NCBI RefSeq assembly: GCF_000788395.1
Contig: NZ_CP009889.1
Span: 1,178,001 to 1,242,000 of the forward strand
DNA length: 64,000 bases
Direction: 5' to 3'
Source of the DNA: Pseudoalteromonas piratica
Lineage (GTDB): Bacteria; Pseudomonadota; Gammaproteobacteria; Enterobacterales; Alteromonadaceae
Part shown: positions 50,648-60,493 of the stretch, in pieces
Layout of the letters: each line of letters begins with the position of its first letter
How positions within the stretch are numbered: the first letter of the stretch is position 1
Notes under the pieces: generated by a model
Database searches by the model: none
What the model saw: only the letters and a program-made list of their open reading frames with translations
Told to the model about the DNA's origin: nothing
Position numbers and translations under genes: made by a program

Positions 50648-51667
50648 ATGTTGACACCTCAACAAGCACGCCAAAGGTTGCGTCGCGTAAGTTCTCATAG
50701 TATCGAAATTGCAGAAAGCTATGATGAATTATTAAATGATCTGCTCAAAGAAGGTTTACACTTTCTTGACGTCGATAGAATTTCGGTTTGGTTAGTTGAT
50801 CACATTGATTCACCAAATCAATTAAATTGTATTGCTAGTAGTGACTTTCAAAATGAACAAGCAAACAGCTTGGAGATACATCAATATCCCACTTATTTTG
50901 AACAAATTCTACTTGGCCATACTATTGCTGCAAACAATGTCGCTCAAGACAACCGTACGACCGAACTAATAATTCATAACCAAAATAGTTCACGTGCACT
51001 TTTAGACACGGTTATTTACTTAAATGGTAAACCCCATGGAGTGGTATCGTGCGAATCATTTGCTGAACACCATATTTGGACTGAGGATGATATTGTGTAT
51101 GCCGAATCACTAGCGGATAGCTGTAGTAGACGGTTAATGGCGCTAGAAACACTCAAGCTTCAAAATCAGTTAAAAGAAATGGTTTTTGTGGATACCTTAA
51201 CAGGTCTTAAAAACCGTCGGTATTTTAATGAACGAGTACAAAGCGCTAAAAATTCGCAGTATCGATTACAAACCCCGCTCTCACTTATCATGATCGACCT
51301 CGATCATTTTAAGCAAATTAATGATGAGTTTGGCCATGAGGCAGGTGATATCGTATTAGCTAAATTTGCCAAAAATTGTCAAAAGCAATTGCGCTTAGAA
51401 GATGTATTATGCCGTTACGGTGGTGAGGAATTTATTATCATCCTCCCCTACACTGCTGAACAACAAGCAATCCAATTAGCCGAGCGTCTGCGTTTATCCA
51501 TTGAAAATATGACCATTCAACATGAGCAGAAAATTATAAAACTTACCGCTAGTTTTGGCGTAGCTGAAATGGGACTAGAACACACTATAGAAGAAACGAT
51601 AAAAAAAGCAGATATTGCCGTGTATAGAGCAAAAGATGCTGGACGAAACTGTGTGATTGCAAATTAA
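50648..51667 (+). CDS. GAF-domain diguanylate cyclase
   Basis: The 339-residue protein has a GAF domain (about 20-165, ISVWLVDHIDSP and WTEDDIVYAESLADSC). Its GGDEF domain (about 180-337) has the active site CRYGGEEFIIILP and an I-site RLED five residues before it. It should synthesise c-di-GMP in response to a small ligand or redox cue bound by GAF. There is no membrane segment. It is divergent from DUF368 and followed by a terminator. Confidence 0.93.
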   Translation: MLTPQQARQRLRRVSSHSIEIAESYDELLNDLLKEGLHFLDVDRISVWLVDHIDSPNQLNCIASSDFQNEQANSLEIHQYPTYFEQILLGHTIAANNVAQDNRTTELIIHNQNSSRALLDTVIYLNGKPHGVVSCESFAEHHIWTEDDIVYAESLADSCSRRLMALETLKLQNQLKEMVFVDTLTGLKNRRYFNERVQSAKNSQYRLQTPLSLIMIDLDHFKQINDEFGHEAGDIVLAKFAKNCQKQLRLEDVLCRYGGEEFIIILPYTAEQQAIQLAERLRLSIENMTIQHEQKIIKLTASFGVAEMGLEHTIEETIKKADIAVYRAKDAGRNCVIAN

Positions 51668-53166: not shown

Positions 53167-53490
53167 ATGAAGTATATTTTGTTGTTAATGCTGTCGATTG
53201 TGCCTTTACAATCGCTTGCTATGGTTGAGCCGCTCTATGGCATTAGTGTGGGTGAATCCAGCATTAAAATTAAGGTAACAAGCAATGGATGCACTACTGA
53301 AAAAGACTTTGAGTTGATGATTCGACATCATCGATTGGTCATAACACGCACAAAAATGGATAACTGTCGTGCACGAGCTAAATTGGTTGAGCTAATATTT
53401 CCTTTACGCGATACTTTAAAGAAACCAAAGTTATATAACCCTATCTTTTTAAGTCTGGAGCCGGTCTTTGCAAAAAATTCTTCTCATTGA
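53167..53490 (+). CDS. Small secreted protein upstream of a two-component system
   Basis: The ATG at 53167 gives 107 residues with a signal peptide (MKYILLLMLSIVPLQSLA). The short periplasmic protein has two cysteines (SNGCTTEK and DNCRAR), probably a disulfide. It is basic. Its stop overlaps the response-regulator coding region by 23 bp, so the two are translationally coupled. By position it may tune the sensor kinase. No family was recognised. Confidence 0.7.
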   Translation: MKYILLLMLSIVPLQSLAMVEPLYGISVGESSIKIKVTSNGCTTEKDFELMIRHHRLVITRTKMDNCRARAKLVELIFPLRDTLKKPKLYNPIFLSLEPVFAKNSSH

Positions 53491-54136
53491 TGACGACGCT
53501 TCGCTAACAAGCTTAATCAGTCAATTTTTAACAAGTAATGGCTATGTGGTTGAAGTGCTTAACAATGCATTAGAAACACAGCATGCCATCGATTCTTTCC
53601 AGCCGGACCTGATCATTCTCGATTTAATGATGCCAGACATCGACGGATTGACTTTGTGTCGACAAATCCGACCGACTTACCATGGTGTCATTATGATGCT
53701 TACCGCGTTAGGTGACGACATAGACGAAGTAACAGGCCTTGAACTTGGTGCTGATGATTATTTATGTAAGCCGGTAAAACCACGCTTATTACTGGCCCAT
53801 ATTCGTGCACAACTCAGAAAAGCAGCGCCGATAGGCGGCATAATTAATAGTTCTGGTCTTGTCATCGATACGCGAAAGCGCATTGTATCGGTCAATGGAA
53901 CGGCTGTTGAGCTAACGACTGCAGAGTTCGATTTACTGGCAATTTTGGCAAACCACAAAGGGCAGGTTATTTCCCGTGAAGACCTGCATATGCAGATTTT
54001 CCGTTTAGAGTATGACGGGATCGATCGCTCAATTGATTTACGTATTAGCCGGATTCGTAAAAAGTTGGCCGTTGTTGCACCAGATAATCAACTTATTAAA
54101 ACGGTCCGTAATACAGGTTACATTCTTTGTGATTAG
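53468..54136 (+). CDS. OmpR/PhoB-family response regulator
   Basis: The 222-residue regulator starts at TTG (53468) with GGAG eight bases upstream. Its receiver domain has IDDDAS, phospho-Asp in LIILDLMMPDIDG, and the Lys in CKPVKP. The winged-helix domain has TTAEFDLLAILANHKG and YDGIDRSIDLRISRIRKKL. It resembles RstA/CpxR-type regulators. Coupled to a small secreted protein upstream and to its kinase downstream (8-bp overlap). Confidence 0.92.
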   Translation: MQKILLIDDDASLTSLISQFLTSNGYVVEVLNNALETQHAIDSFQPDLIILDLMMPDIDGLTLCRQIRPTYHGVIMMLTALGDDIDEVTGLELGADDYLCKPVKPRLLLAHIRAQLRKAAPIGGIINSSGLVIDTRKRIVSVNGTAVELTTAEFDLLAILANHKGQVISREDLHMQIFRLEYDGIDRSIDLRISRIRKKLAVVAPDNQLIKTVRNTGYILCD

Positions 54137-55352
54137 CAAAAATCGCCCCCTGCTAATGTCAATGGCATGTCTTGTGATGTGCTTTATCGTCATAATGATA
54201 AGTTATGGCATTAATTGGTTATCTATCAATGAATACGCGCCTATTCGACATCACCTGCAACAGGTTAATCAGGAGTTAGCAGCGAAATATAATAACGAAA
54301 CACTGACATTAAAAACTTGGCAAACAGCTGCTTTAGAGTATCCAAATACCCATATCAGCTTAGTAAACTTGATTGATTTGGAAAAACAACACGCTAAACA
54401 ACTCACATCATTAGCCAATGGCGAATCGTTCACAGAAAGTGATGAGATGAGCGCCTATTTGAAGCTAACCGCCAATCAGTATTTAAAAATAACTCCTCTT
54501 ATTAATACGAGCATCCCGCTGATTTTAGCTTATAAGGTACTGGGCTTAACGGCTGTGTTTTTTGGCGGCTTGTGGCTACTTTATTGGTTTGCTTTAACGC
54601 GCTCCAACTTACATTCAGTGACAGAAAAAGAGCACAACCTTAATCCCAAACATGGGCAAATCGATGCTGATAGCCGTGATTTAGCAAGGATGCAAAAGGA
54701 TTTATTACATGGTATTGCGCATGAGCTTAGAAGTCCGCTTTCAAGGATGCAGTTTGCATTAGACATGTTGCCACAAACCAATGTTCCTGCGCACAAGAGT
54801 TTATACCGCCAAATCGATAATGAAGTGAATAGCCTTAACTTAATGGCAAACGAGCTACTTAATTATGCACGATTGGAATTTATGGAAAAACCCCTGTGTT
54901 TTTCAGAGCACCCCTTGGATGAGTTGATTAAAACAAGCTTAGCGAACGTAACCTCTCATTATCCTAAGCTACACTTTATTCATGATTCTTGTAGTTGTTT
55001 ATTACATTGTGACGGACCTTTACTAATCAAGGCATTAACCAACGTATTACAAAATGCGGGACGCGTAGCGAGTCAAGTGGTTGAAATCTCGTGTTGGTTT
55101 AGCCAAGGATATTGCCATATTGCTGTAGAAGATGATGGTCCGGGCATCCCAATAGAGAAAGTTGCTCAAATTTTTGAGCCTTTTACCCGACTAAACCCAA
55201 GCCGACAACGCGATTCTGGTGGTGTGGGCTTAGGCTTAGCTGTGACACACAGTATTATTTCTCGTCATCATGGACACATACGTGTCGACGAATCAAAGCG
55301 ACATGGCGCACGTTTTATCTTATCGTTACCCGCAACAAAACCAAGTTGTTAA
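54129..55352 (+). CDS. Sensor histidine kinase partner of the OmpR-type regulator
   Basis: The GTG at 54129 overlaps the regulator stop by 8 bases and gives 407 residues. TM1 (about 8-30), a periplasmic sensor domain (about 31-145) and TM2 (about 147-170) are followed by a linker. HisKA has GIAHELRSPLSRMQFALDM and the HATPase_c has DDGPGIP and GVGLGLAVTHSI. The sensor domain resembles none I recognise. It presumably phosphorylates the coupled regulator. Its stop overlaps the convergent phosphatase stop by four bases, with no terminator between. Confidence 0.9.
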   Translation: MISKNRPLLMSMACLVMCFIVIMISYGINWLSINEYAPIRHHLQQVNQELAAKYNNETLTLKTWQTAALEYPNTHISLVNLIDLEKQHAKQLTSLANGESFTESDEMSAYLKLTANQYLKITPLINTSIPLILAYKVLGLTAVFFGGLWLLYWFALTRSNLHSVTEKEHNLNPKHGQIDADSRDLARMQKDLLHGIAHELRSPLSRMQFALDMLPQTNVPAHKSLYRQIDNEVNSLNLMANELLNYARLEFMEKPLCFSEHPLDELIKTSLANVTSHYPKLHFIHDSCSCLLHCDGPLLIKALTNVLQNAGRVASQVVEISCWFSQGYCHIAVEDDGPGIPIEKVAQIFEPFTRLNPSRQRDSGGVGLGLAVTHSIISRHHGHIRVDESKRHGARFILSLPATKPSC

Positions 55353-55975: not shown

Positions 55976-58900
55976 TTAACTCGTTTTATGCGGTAGCCAA
56001 TTAAGCAGTTTGGTTTTAAGGTTCGATTCAACGATGGGTTTAGATACATAATCATCCATGCCCGCGGCCAAACACTTTTCTTTATCCCCCACCATCGCAT
56101 TTGCAGTCATGGCAACAATGGGAATACTTGTAAAGCGTTCACCAGCTTCACCTTGTCGAATGGCTTTTGTCGCATCATAACCATCCATTTCAGGCATTTG
56201 GCAATCCATTAATATAATGGAAAAAGGTGAATCAGCTTCACATTGCTTTAGGTGGCGAATCACTTCTTCACCATTGGCAGCGACGGTAATATCCATTAAA
56301 CCTAATTTGTTAAGCGTACTTTGTGCAACAATCTGATTAACCTGATTATCTTCCGCTAACAAAATCCGGATTCGACTATCCCATGCAATCTCATCTGGTA
56401 TTTTTTGCGTTTGCAATGTTTGAATATAGTGACGGGTGACAAGCGGATCAGCCTGTTTATAAGCATCGCCACCGTCAACTACAATTGCTAGCGCATCGAG
56501 CAAGTCCGAGGTAGTAGCTGGTTTTGGGAAATAGCCTGAAAAGCCCAGTTTTGCAAAAAACGCAGCATCGCCTTGATGGTTCATCGAAGTCATCATCACC
56601 AGTTTAGTGTCTTTCAACTGCGCATGATGTTTTATTTGACGCCCTAACTCGGCGCCATCCACTTCAGGCATTTGCATATCTAACAGAGCAATATCAAAGC
56701 ATTTATGATGTTTATCAAAAAATGCTTCGCACACTTCAATTGCTTGTTTTGCTGATAGCGCTTCGGTAACTGTTGCCCCCCAAAATTCTAATTGACCGCG
56801 TAAAACATCTAAATTGGTTTTGTTATCATCAACAATTAACACATTAAGTTTTTTAATATCGATAATAGGAATATCAGCTTGTACTGAATTACTTTTGCCT
56901 AATGATAGTGTGAACTTAAAGGTACAGCCTTTACCTATTTCACTGTGAACGCTGATATCGCCGCCCATCAGTGAGCAAAGATTTTTCACAATAGCTAAGC
57001 CTAATCCTGTGCCACCATATTTTCGAGTAGTCGATGCATCAACTTGTGAAAACGATTTAAATAGCTTTTCTTGTTGCTCTTTTGATATGCCTATCCCAGT
57101 ATCACTGATTTCACATTCAAATTGCCAATTTTCGTCATTGTGTTCTTCCAGGGTGGCCTTTATCACCACTTCGCCACGTGCTGTAAATTTTATCGCATTA
57201 CCGACAAGGTTATGTAAAATCTGACGCAAACGGGTTGGATCACCCGTAACTGTTTTTTTATTAATACCTGTTATATCTAGCACTAGTTCCAAGTTTTTCT
57301 GATGGGCTTGTATAGCAGAAGCCTCTGCAAATTCCCCCATCATTGCGCGCAAGTCAAACTCTATGTTTTCAAGCTCAAGTTTGCCGGCATCAATTTTTGA
57401 AAAATCTAAAATATCGTTCAATAAGTTTAACAAGGTATTCGCACTGCTAATCGCCACATTGGTACGATGTTGCTGTTCTTTATTAAGATCAGTATTGAGC
57501 AATAAATTAAGCATGCCCAGGACACCATTCATTGGCGTGCGGATCTCATGACTCATCGAAGCTAAAAATTCGCTCTTCGCATTATTAGCATGCTCAGCTT
57601 GATGCTTTGCTTGTTCGAGCGCTTTACTTGTTTCAATTCGCTCAGTGATATCTTGTTGAATACCAACAAAGGCTACGAGTTGCTGTTCCTCGTCAAACAC
57701 AGGCGATATCAGTAAATTATTCCAAAATGCTGTACCATCTTTGCGGTAATTCAATAATTCAATTCGGATCTTAGTTTTGTCTACTAGGGCTTGTTTTATT
57801 TGTTTGATTGCCTCTTGAGAGGTTTCTTGTCCTTGAAGGAATCGACAGTTACTGCCTAATACCTCAGATCCATAACCTGTCATTTTTTCAAAACCACTGT
57901 TAATAAATATCAATGGGTTGTCAGGCTTTGTCGCATCGGAGATTGAAATACCTAAATTACATGCTTCTATCGCTTGTGCTAACAAATCATTGCGCTCTTT
58001 TGCAGCTTGTAAGGCTTTTTGCGCCAATTTTTGCTCGGTAATATCCGTAATCGAGCCTGCCATTCGCGTGGCTTTCCCCGCTTCATTCCACAATGCCGTT
58101 CCCTTGGCTCTAAAGAATAAGTAATCGCCATTTTTACTACGTAAACGATACTCAACATCAAATGGTTCTTTATCTTTAAGATGAGCAACGACCCTTTCTT
58201 TGACATACTCTTTTTCATCTGGATGAAGTACTTTTTCGAAACTTATAAAAGTATTGGGATAAGCCTCTAAATCATCCCCCTGATAACCTAACAGCTCTCG
58301 AAAGCGCGGCGAGTAAAACACCGTGTTGTGCTCAATATTCCAATCCCAAATCCCATCACTGCTACCGGCAACTGCGACTTTAAATCGCTCTTCACTTTGT
58401 TTTATGGCGCTTTCTGATTCTGCCAGGCGACGATAAGGGTCTAACAATAGCTTGTGACCAACTAAATACAACACTACCCAGGCCACGACTAAGCTCACCA
58501 TTATTGCAGAAGCGACCTTGCTGATAATGCTCATCACGCGCTGTTCAACCAACTGCTGATTAAATTGGCTATCGAGAGTGAGCCCTGTATCGCCTAAAGA
58601 TAAAGAAGACACCGACTGGTATTCAAGCAGCGGATTAATCGTTGAGAAAGAGAGCCAATTGCCAGTCAAGGTCACAGCATAGGTATCACTGTTTATGACA
58701 TCTTCCAGCAACATGGTTAAACCACGTTCAAATTTTACAATCAATGCACCTTCACTAAGGCCATTATATTTCACAGGTACTGCAAGTAAAAAGTAGGCAC
58801 TATCACCTTCTTCAATGAGAGTGATGACATGCGCTGTCTCTTCCATCAATAACTTTTCCAGCCATGGTGCTTGCAATTCGAATAAAGTATTTGGCTGGTT

Positions 58901-59281
58901 ACTATATACAAGTTCGTTGGCGATATTCACAAGCCAAATCGGTTCTTTATTACCTACTATCTGGTAACTGTCTAGATAGTCTGCTAGCGATGCCGTTGAG
59001 ACATCTGACCCCATTACACCATTTATCAATATTGGCTGGCTTGCTAGGTCATGTAACAGCTGAAGACGTGTTTCTAAAAACTGTTGAACGTAACGGGCAC
59101 TTAACTGGGCTTCAGTTTGTGCGTAGTTGCTGTGATACTCACGCATACTTTTATCGGTAGTGAAACCAACAAGTAAAGAGCTCACCAGAACTGACAGCAG
59201 CAAACTCAATAATACAAACAATAAAAATGCATGGTTTACTGATAGTTGAAACTTATTGACCTGTTTTTCCATTACAAGCAC
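55976..59281 (-). CDS. LOV-containing hybrid sensor histidine kinase
   Basis: The 1101-residue hybrid kinase has TM1 (about 18-39), a periplasmic domain (about 45-245), TM2 (about 256-275) and a PAS domain (about 295-415). A second PAS has the LOV photoreceptor signature: NCRFLQG with flavin-adduct Cys 479, ELLNYRKDGTAFWN with Asn 511 and 521, and VGIQQD with Gln 542. HisKA (His 578 in SMSHEIRTPMNG), HATPase, and two receivers (Asp 868 and Asp 1026) follow. It may join a periplasmic input with blue-light sensing. GTG at 59281 abuts the binding-protein stop. An ATG at 59272 is the alternative. Confidence 0.93.
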   Translation of the reverse strand: MLVMEKQVNKFQLSVNHAFLLFVLLSLLLSVLVSSLLVGFTTDKSMREYHSNYAQTEAQLSARYVQQFLETRLQLLHDLASQPILINGVMGSDVSTASLADYLDSYQIVGNKEPIWLVNIANELVYSNQPNTLFELQAPWLEKLLMEETAHVITLIEEGDSAYFLLAVPVKYNGLSEGALIVKFERGLTMLLEDVINSDTYAVTLTGNWLSFSTINPLLEYQSVSSLSLGDTGLTLDSQFNQQLVEQRVMSIISKVASAIMVSLVVAWVVLYLVGHKLLLDPYRRLAESESAIKQSEERFKVAVAGSSDGIWDWNIEHNTVFYSPRFRELLGYQGDDLEAYPNTFISFEKVLHPDEKEYVKERVVAHLKDKEPFDVEYRLRSKNGDYLFFRAKGTALWNEAGKATRMAGSITDITEQKLAQKALQAAKERNDLLAQAIEACNLGISISDATKPDNPLIFINSGFEKMTGYGSEVLGSNCRFLQGQETSQEAIKQIKQALVDKTKIRIELLNYRKDGTAFWNNLLISPVFDEEQQLVAFVGIQQDITERIETSKALEQAKHQAEHANNAKSEFLASMSHEIRTPMNGVLGMLNLLLNTDLNKEQQHRTNVAISSANTLLNLLNDILDFSKIDAGKLELENIEFDLRAMMGEFAEASAIQAHQKNLELVLDITGINKKTVTGDPTRLRQILHNLVGNAIKFTARGEVVIKATLEEHNDENWQFECEISDTGIGISKEQQEKLFKSFSQVDASTTRKYGGTGLGLAIVKNLCSLMGGDISVHSEIGKGCTFKFTLSLGKSNSVQADIPIIDIKKLNVLIVDDNKTNLDVLRGQLEFWGATVTEALSAKQAIEVCEAFFDKHHKCFDIALLDMQMPEVDGAELGRQIKHHAQLKDTKLVMMTSMNHQGDAAFFAKLGFSGYFPKPATTSDLLDALAIVVDGGDAYKQADPLVTRHYIQTLQTQKIPDEIAWDSRIRILLAEDNQVNQIVAQSTLNKLGLMDITVAANGEEVIRHLKQCEADSPFSIILMDCQMPEMDGYDATKAIRQGEAGERFTSIPIVAMTANAMVGDKEKCLAAGMDDYVSKPIVESNLKTKLLNWLPHKTS

Positions 59282-60493
59282 TTAATTCTCAAATACATTA
59301 ATTCCACCATCAGGCATATACTTTGCCATGCATAAATCCGAAAGCCCGAGAGCTTCATGCGCATCAGGTGTGTTTTCCGACCATGGAGTAAAAGGTTGCT
59401 GATAGGTTTTAATCAGCCCAGTCACTGGCTGTTGCAAGTTTTCCAATTCAACACGCAGTGACTCGCGCATAAGTTTAACATCTTGATTAACCTGTGTATT
59501 TGACAATGCTGTTAAAAATACATTCGCTAAATCATATGCGTGAATAAAGCCAGCAGGTGCAGGCAGTGTGGCTTCGTCAGTAAACGTTTCTGGAAATAAT
59601 ATTTTGGCATCCACAATCGCTTGTTTGGCAAGTTCAGATTGGGTATTACGAAGGGAGAAACAGGTTTGAATAAAACTTAAATCAACATCATTTGCTAAAA
59701 ATGGCTTCACGTTATTAAAAAAGTCACCGCCTGTTATTCCCCAATGACTTACAATGGGTAATCGCTGTGATTTCGGTAAACTTGCCATTGCCTCTACAAA
59801 CTGTCGACCTTCAAGGGCGTTACCAACAAACAAGATGCAATCTGCGTTGCGCCCTGCGATGTCCCTTAAAATTATTTTTGCCGTGTTTAGTTTGGTATTC
59901 CAGCTAAACCAAGTGACGTTAGCGTCATTTTTTGAGGCCAGTGCTTTACTCATGGTTGCGAAGTTAGATTTGCCCCACGGTGTTTGTTCAAGCAGCATGT
60001 GTGGTCGCTGGCAACTTAGCTGCTCTTTTGCATAACTTACAATGCGATAACCAGCTTTCGTGTCATCAACCGAGAGACGAAAAACCCAATTTTTCGGTGA
60101 CGCAAAGCGCGTAATCGGGCCGCCCGCAGCCCAGGGCACAAGCAGTAATATATTATTTTCACTGATGAATTTTTTATGCTTAATGTAGGGTGGCGAATGG
60201 AGACCGCCCAGCATCATTAATGCATTAGGATCCGCTAAAAACTGCTTCATATGCCGTAAGCTACGATTACTGTTTCCACGGTGATCTTTTTCAATGAAAT
60301 TAAATTCAATATTAGGAAAGCTTGCTTGACGCTGTTTGAGTGCAGTCTCAAACCCCATTTTTATCGCGTTGGCTGACTGACTATGATTAGAGTAATCTGA
60401 ATCATGATAAATATTAAATACCTGCTTATTTGCCAACGCATTTACTGAAAAAAATATAAGCAAAATTAAAATAACGTTTGAAATGCGATCCAT
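59282..60493 (-). CDS. Periplasmic type-1 binding protein, sensor-associated
   Basis: The 403-residue protein has a signal peptide (to about ALA) and the two-lobe fold of Leu/Ile/Val-type binding proteins (Peripla_BP_6): MGFETALKQRQASFPN, MMLGGLHSPPYIKH, LLLVPWAAGGP and PIVSHWGITGGDF. No ABC permease or ATPase gene accompanies it. Its stop is directly followed by the hybrid kinase start, so it probably feeds ligand information to that kinase. The ligand is unknown, perhaps an amino acid, amide or aromatic acid. Confidence 0.88.
   Translation of the reverse strand: MDRISNVILILLIFFSVNALANKQVFNIYHDSDYSNHSQSANAIKMGFETALKQRQASFPNIEFNFIEKDHRGNSNRSLRHMKQFLADPNALMMLGGLHSPPYIKHKKFISENNILLLVPWAAGGPITRFASPKNWVFRLSVDDTKAGYRIVSYAKEQLSCQRPHMLLEQTPWGKSNFATMSKALASKNDANVTWFSWNTKLNTAKIILRDIAGRNADCILFVGNALEGRQFVEAMASLPKSQRLPIVSHWGITGGDFFNNVKPFLANDVDLSFIQTCFSLRNTQSELAKQAIVDAKILFPETFTDEATLPAPAGFIHAYDLANVFLTALSNTQVNQDVKLMRESLRVELENLQQPVTGLIKTYQQPFTPWSENTPDAHEALGLSDLCMAKYMPDGGINVFEN

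Follow-up and report, generated by a model that had tools for sequence, protein, structure and literature searches.

LuxQ and TorS are hybrid histidine kinases, and in the plan of ArcB, BarA and TorS a hybrid kinase carries a C-terminal Hpt domain. LuxP-LuxQ, TorT-TorS and XylFII-LytS are solved examples of sensor kinases activated by a binding protein, as listed in the review PMC6321045. Histidine kinases with a LOV domain include the engineered YF1 (4gcz) and the natural proteins 6ph4, 4r3a and 9vf7. Signal integration by sensor kinases has mostly been inferred from single inputs. In the open literature, no paper was found whose title or opening of the abstract describes the coupling of a LOV kinase with a binding protein, which is a weak negative, as subscription journals are thinly covered by such a search.

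The window, which is the whole stretch of 64,000 nucleotides analysed here, comes from a Pseudoalteromonas genome of 4.8 Mb in two contigs and is part of the second of these, which has 1.6 Mb. It contains a gene for a periplasmic binding protein and a gene for a membrane hybrid histidine kinase, both on the minus strand, and the two ORFs abut with a gap of 0. The preliminary description had placed both ORFs at the coordinates given here and had noted that they abut. The features of the pair are the following:

60431..60493, minus strand, probable signal peptide of the binding protein, residues about 1-21, judged by eye
59282..60493, minus strand, periplasmic binding protein gene, 403 aa, Peripla_BP_6 / Leu-Ile-Val-binding-protein fold class, its signal-like N-terminus lacking a lipobox
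55976..59281, minus strand, membrane hybrid histidine kinase gene, 1101 aa, GTG start with an in-frame ATG at codon 4
59162..59233, minus strand, first transmembrane stretch, residues about 17-40, hydropathy peak near 11-43
58532..59161, minus strand, periplasmic sensor region, residues about 41-250 (about 210 residues), probably dCache-like
58457..58531, minus strand, second transmembrane stretch, residues about 251-275, hydropathy peak near 248-282
58052..58321, minus strand, first PAS domain (PAS_3), residues 321-410, from Pfam
57614..57985, minus strand, LOV domain, residues about 433-556, from Pfam (PAS_9, 451-547), NCBIfam and the alignment to solved LOV domains
57845..57847, minus strand, codon of the presumed adduct cysteine, Cys479, which is Cys in 51/51 LOV-bearing genus loci
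57656..57658, minus strand, codon of Gln542, the LOV glutamine of strand I-beta, which is Gln in 30/51 genus loci
57383..57580, minus strand, HisKA domain, from Pfam, with the phospho-acceptor His578 at 57548-57550 by motif spacing
56900..57244, minus strand, HATPase_c domain, from Pfam
56417..56776, minus strand, first receiver domain (Pfam Response_reg), with the Asp, Thr/Ser and Lys of a working receiver present by eye
56006..56365, minus strand, second receiver domain (Pfam Response_reg), with the same Asp, Thr/Ser and Lys present by eye

The pair is like LuxP-LuxQ, TorT-TorS and XylFII-LytS in having a binding protein gene beside that of a kinase whose periplasmic domain lies between two transmembrane helices, and its kinase is a hybrid as LuxQ and TorS are. 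It differs from these systems by the LOV domain before the kinase, by the Peripla_BP_6 class of its binding protein and by a kinase without Hpt; the C-terminal Hpt of ArcB, BarA and TorS is missing. LOV histidine kinases share the LOV residues with it, and the alignment to YF1 continues through linker and kinase core (residues 432-797, 6.3e-45), whereas the kinase of the pair is anchored in the membrane, senses with a periplasmic region as well and has a binding protein of its own. Two inputs whose kinds of chemistry are known, the binding protein and the LOV domain, are wired in fixed order into one kinase. The best reading of this gene and domain order is that one phosphorelay would be fed by two sensors, one for light and one for a periplasmic ligand. 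The kinase, which occurs in marine bacteria of the genus Pseudoalteromonas and in some relatives, appears built to read a chemical, by way of its periplasmic partner, and blue light, by way of a cytoplasmic domain of flavin type.

The Pfam models HisKA, HATPase_c and two Response_reg matches define the hybrid kinase, in which Pfam gives no Hpt match, and the hydropathy profile places the periplasmic domain between two transmembrane helices. The NCBIfam LuxQ model matches the kinase core with 378 bits against a cut-off of 1200, which is below LuxQ proper, and the TorS model also matches, far under its cut-off. The periplasmic region of the window's kinase has no significant Pfam match, dCache_1 included. 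Among the N-termini of 29 kinases, 13 give a weak dCache_1 match (best 2.9e-9), and in separate scans six kinases or GGDEF-EAL proteins match it too, each below the 45-bit cut-off; the LuxQ periplasmic family is absent from the families matched by these N-termini, and unlike LuxQ the window's kinase has no match to it in its periplasmic region. A profile of the 29 N-termini has no match among solved structures. Structure predictions from two-row alignments are unusable, with a mean pLDDT of 45 for residues 1-558 of the kinase and of 40 for the binding protein. The distance from the DIT motif to the phospho-acceptor histidine is measurable in 77 of 99 kinases examined; 73 of these have 34 residues and three have 41, which is longer by one heptad, and the value of 12 obtained for L062 is probably due to a wrong motif picked up by the pattern. 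Such a constant spacing fits the need of transmission through a coiled coil.

The binding protein passes the gathering score of Peripla_BP_6 (37.6 against 31.7 bits, E 2.6e-9), a search proposed in the preliminary description, and all 41 members of its alignment match this model at E up to 0.1. A profile of the 41 proteins matches homologues of Leu/Ile/Val-binding proteins in the PDB, of which 4n0q is the best (1.7e-14), and these matches cover mainly the first lobe, by sequence. A pattern for a lipobox-like motif finds none in 105 of 106 homologues. Two sets of residues, D31, D33, R77, H99, E169 and E228 on one side and W121, W173, N225, H250 and Q276 on the other, are kept in 104/104 binding proteins of the family outside L158 and L159, which are linked to a transporter. 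These two proteins and a further transporter-linked relative, L161, share the second set (W121, W173, N225, H250, Q276) and W251 and are without D31, D33, H99, E169 and E228, residues that are invariant in the kinase-linked proteins. Since one set is shared and the other is missing from the transporter-linked relatives, it is plausible that the family binds one type of ligand and that its kinase-linked members have a sensor-specific surface. The tryptophan set would line the ligand pocket. By annotation, the neighbours of the L161 gene are an amidohydrolase and a carbon-nitrogen hydrolase, and an Azospirillum pair lies near phenylacetate genes; because of these neighbours a nitrogen-containing ligand may be guessed.

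The binding protein is present in 56 of 108 genomes of the genus, and the N-terminus of the kinase is present in the same 56. The ORF with this N-terminus starts between -23 and +20 bases from the stop of the binding protein in 56/56 loci, which argues that the adjacency is more than chance; three of these kinases, those of L040, L066 and L068, are divided over two ORFs. At the level of the family, 58 of 295 genomes match the binding protein, nine of them in the genus, and 49 genomes outside the genus have 52 places in all. Of these, 50 places in 48 genomes were compared, with G305 left out (two places, reading frame with many stops). The kinase lies directly downstream of the binding protein in 46 of these 50 loci and is split in L138 and L147. 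The exceptions are L129, which has a fragment of the kinase only, L130, which has no kinase, and L158 and L159, which have a transporter instead; a permease (BPD_transp_2) is confirmed after the binding protein in L158. Conserved synteny, the preliminary description's own test of the pair, is therefore seen without intervening transporter genes in 56/56 genus and 46/50 further family loci. Its statement that no ABC transporter lies beside the pair also holds in the window, where 12 ORFs between 50000 and 64000 reach 100 aa or more and none of them is a permease or ATPase gene, by reading of their translations and, for part of them, by the family scan.

In the class, 22 of 369 genomes match the binding protein, and several of the 17 stretches taken have a kinase beside it. 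In L191 (2950-7214) it is followed by a dCache-HAMP-PAS-PAS-GGDEF-EAL protein instead of the kinase. Fusions of DctP and Peripla_BP_6, of about 700-725 aa, are found in other Gammaproteobacteria (L192, L195, L196, L198, L199, L200 and L201), and in L192, L196, L199, L200 and L201 a kinase, assigned by similarity, follows. A wider contig scan with a single-protein query gave one relative, L205, from Pseudoalteromonas sp. G4.

LOV domains have a pair of asparagines in contact with the flavin and a glutamine in strand I-beta. The second PAS domain of the kinase was described earlier as having the full LOV signature with the adduct cysteine at codon 57845-57847, and this stands: NCRFLQG, NYRKDG, FWN and GIQ are intact in the alignment to solved LOV domains, and the GxNCRFLQ motif is present as GSNCRFLQG with Cys479 at that codon. 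The domain also has Asn511, Asn521 and Gln542, which presumably corresponds to Q513 of AsLOV2. Residues 429-558 align over nearly their full length to solved LOV proteins, of which 9vf7 is the best (1.6e-33), and chains that we take to be YtvA of B. subtilis are also among the best alignments. The NCBIfam YtvA family matches residues 433-563 at 3e-50, under the whole-protein cut-off of the model. In the 51 LOV-bearing genus loci (an alignment of 52 rows, in which the window is entered twice), the adduct cysteine and both flavin-site asparagines are kept in 51/51, the asparagine preceding the cysteine in 49/51, and the I-beta glutamine is replaced by Leu or Ile in 21/51 (L040 and L046, for example). 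Work on glutamine-deficient LOV domains is reportedly that of Dietler. According to PMC9098866, lack of this glutamine leaves LOV domains able to signal light, and the residues that most often replace it in nature are Leu and Ile. The 21 genus domains are alike to these glutamine-deficient receptors, whereas that of the window keeps its glutamine. To judge from the conserved site, the LOV domain would bind flavin.

LOV domains at E <=1e-20 are found in 53 of the 108 genus genomes, 51 of which have the pair. The remaining two, G091 and G107, encode a different LOV only, which is part of a protein of about 1600 aa, and G031 carries such a LOV additionally. The LOV of the pair is the only one of this grade in the window's genome, and a light-sensing receptor would give it a function.

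The binding protein adjoins a LOV kinase in 51 of the 56 genus loci and a kinase without LOV in five. In the rest of the family two groups are seen. In the near group (24 loci, 22 of them with kinases) no LOV is aligned, and in the distant group a LOV-type domain stands directly before HisKA in 24/24, with the cysteine kept in 20, from seven genera. The four that lost it (L140, L142, L143 and L155, all of genus code g24) are likely decayed photoreceptors, still joined to a kinase linked to the binding protein. In L033 and L034, which are sisters of the window's clade, the first PAS domain ends in the DVT-ER linker that follows the LOV domain in the window, and the distance from motif to histidine is unchanged at 34, as would be expected if a single coiled-coil-linked module had been removed precisely. 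Linker and spacing are also consistent with coiled-coil transmission. In a tree of the binding proteins (102 of 119 rows, 17 near-identical ones being dropped), presence of LOV needs six changes, of which at least five are forced by starred branches; the count takes gains and losses together. The LOV tree, in which row L240, labelled 'other', is the same LOV as L134, groups the genus LOVs with those of other proteins, and one clade for the LOVs of the receptor family is not rejected by the AU test (p 0.374). Two origins of LOV in the receptor family would be favoured. On the sequences compared, what stays constant in this family is the binding protein together with the periplasmic sensor, and LOV is the exchangeable part. 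Ligand sensing is probably the core function, with light as an added input, because LOV was lost or decayed while the pair stayed.

The most likely mechanism, which we regard as probable, is a receptor with two inputs, similar to LuxP-LuxQ or TorT-TorS and with a LOV domain directly before the kinase. The exported binding protein would capture a small, perhaps nitrogen-containing ligand and, like LuxP with LuxQ or TorT with TorS, would dock on the periplasmic domain of the kinase. The ligand signal would cross the membrane and the first PAS domain to the cytoplasmic helices; the solved precedents, as listed in PMC6321045, and the co-occurrence of the two genes are the basis of this chain. The LOV domain, immediately before the HisKA helix, would bind flavin, form an adduct at Cys479 in blue light and alter the coiled coil by which the kinase is driven, and light may in this way set how strongly, or whether, the ligand signal alters phosphorylation; this step is proposed because the photochemical residues are conserved. 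Phosphate would pass from His578 to the receivers, then to a separate Hpt protein and a regulator, a separate Hpt being supposed because the kinase has none and two short Hpt genes are present in the genome. The predicted gating by light of a receptor of this kind is well motivated by sequence. More tentatively, blue light may tune the gain of a periplasmic ligand receptor to which LOV was fitted at least twice and from which it was removed cleanly, and the pair would then be a conserved coincidence receptor, a proposal that seems to us possible but short of probable. If it is true, natural versions without LOV and without the glutamine would be ready controls. Relatives that differ in the absence of LOV only, at identical linker spacing, make the combination of a light switch with a transmembrane ligand signal directly testable, and an uncharacterised family for chemoreception in marine bacteria would gain a light input.

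That LOV is dispensable to the pair, being absent from five of 56 genus kinases and from the 22 near-group loci with kinases, speaks against the reading with two inputs. So do the periplasmic region of the window's kinase, which has neither a significant Pfam match nor one to the LuxQ periplasmic family, the family profile, which matches no solved structure, and the narrow distribution of the LuxU-like Hpt described below. The kinase could be driven by the binding protein only, with LOV as a structural or flavin-redox PAS spacer that has no physiological role in light. The pair is kept after LOV is gone in L033, L034 and L110, where the linker of the LOV side follows the first PAS domain and the spacing is unaltered, and together with the decayed domains (4/24 distant kinases) these versions indicate that the kinase core works without LOV; the glutamine missing from 21/51 genus domains would fit a spacer as well. 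The adduct cysteine, however, is required by the photochemistry and not by the PAS fold, and it is invariant in the genus (51/51) and kept in 20/24 distant domains, while domains without the glutamine still signal light and carry its commonest natural replacements, according to PMC9098866. This explanation is considered unlikely.

Far less probable is a kinase driven by light beside a binding protein that has no signalling role, either in a chance operon or as a leftover of uptake, to which we give the smallest weight of all. No transporter accompanies the binding protein, and its docking on the kinase is a prediction. Still, the binding protein stays and is strongly constrained also without LOV (56/56 genus loci, 22/24 near family loci with kinase), it elsewhere precedes quite different kinase or GGDEF-EAL modules, and such close tracking of the sensor region is not what a leftover would show; among 106 loci it is without a kinase only in L130, besides L129 with its fragment and the two transporter loci. 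The inputs could also be independent in time, with the protein acting as a ligand sensor in the dark and as a light sensor otherwise, and with separate outputs through the two receivers. Two intact receivers and the absence of Hpt in the window's kinase agree with such a division, but both inputs reach one HisKA dimer, and two receivers are unneeded for the LOV version, as the distant LOV kinases scanned (L139, L141, L152 and also L134) have one Response_reg match each. We regard independent inputs as improbable. The receptor with two inputs is retained as the preferred reading.

As to output, the preliminary description had stated that no obvious regulator lies near the pair. This needs correcting, as an OmpR-type regulator is about 2 kb away, but this regulator has its own histidine kinase and its position is not conserved. 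The regulator and its kinase lie at 53468-55352 on the plus strand. In the ORF list the two share about 125 bases, and for this reason they probably form a self-contained system. Their kinase is a singleton, since none of the neighbours compared in the other 105 loci is related to it, and the OmpR pair was rejected as the output regulator on account of its own kinase and of this singleton status. A GAF-GGDEF protein is encoded at 50648-51667 of the window.

The window's genome has 11 Hpt matches, 10 of them over the cut-off and two in short stand-alone ORFs. At another place in this genome (L252 3422-6201, C2 about 304400-307200) a receiver-sigma54 regulator is followed one gene further by a stand-alone Hpt, in a locus resembling those for polysaccharide export, an arrangement that we take to resemble the LuxO-LuxU plan. 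The LuxU-like Hpt was rejected as a genus-wide relay, with close relatives (E <1e-20) in only six of 108 genomes.

A FAN1-like/DnaQ-like nuclease was also rejected as a partner of the pair; it is found in 94 of 108 genomes and beside the pair in 38 of 56 loci, and its place downstream is probably a matter of synteny only. This nuclease, of about 720 aa, has FAN1_HTH, VRR_NUC and RNase_T domains and lies downstream on the same strand in loci of the range L039-L083, for example at 10792-12957 in L073. In the window's genome it is encoded at another place, C2:109587.
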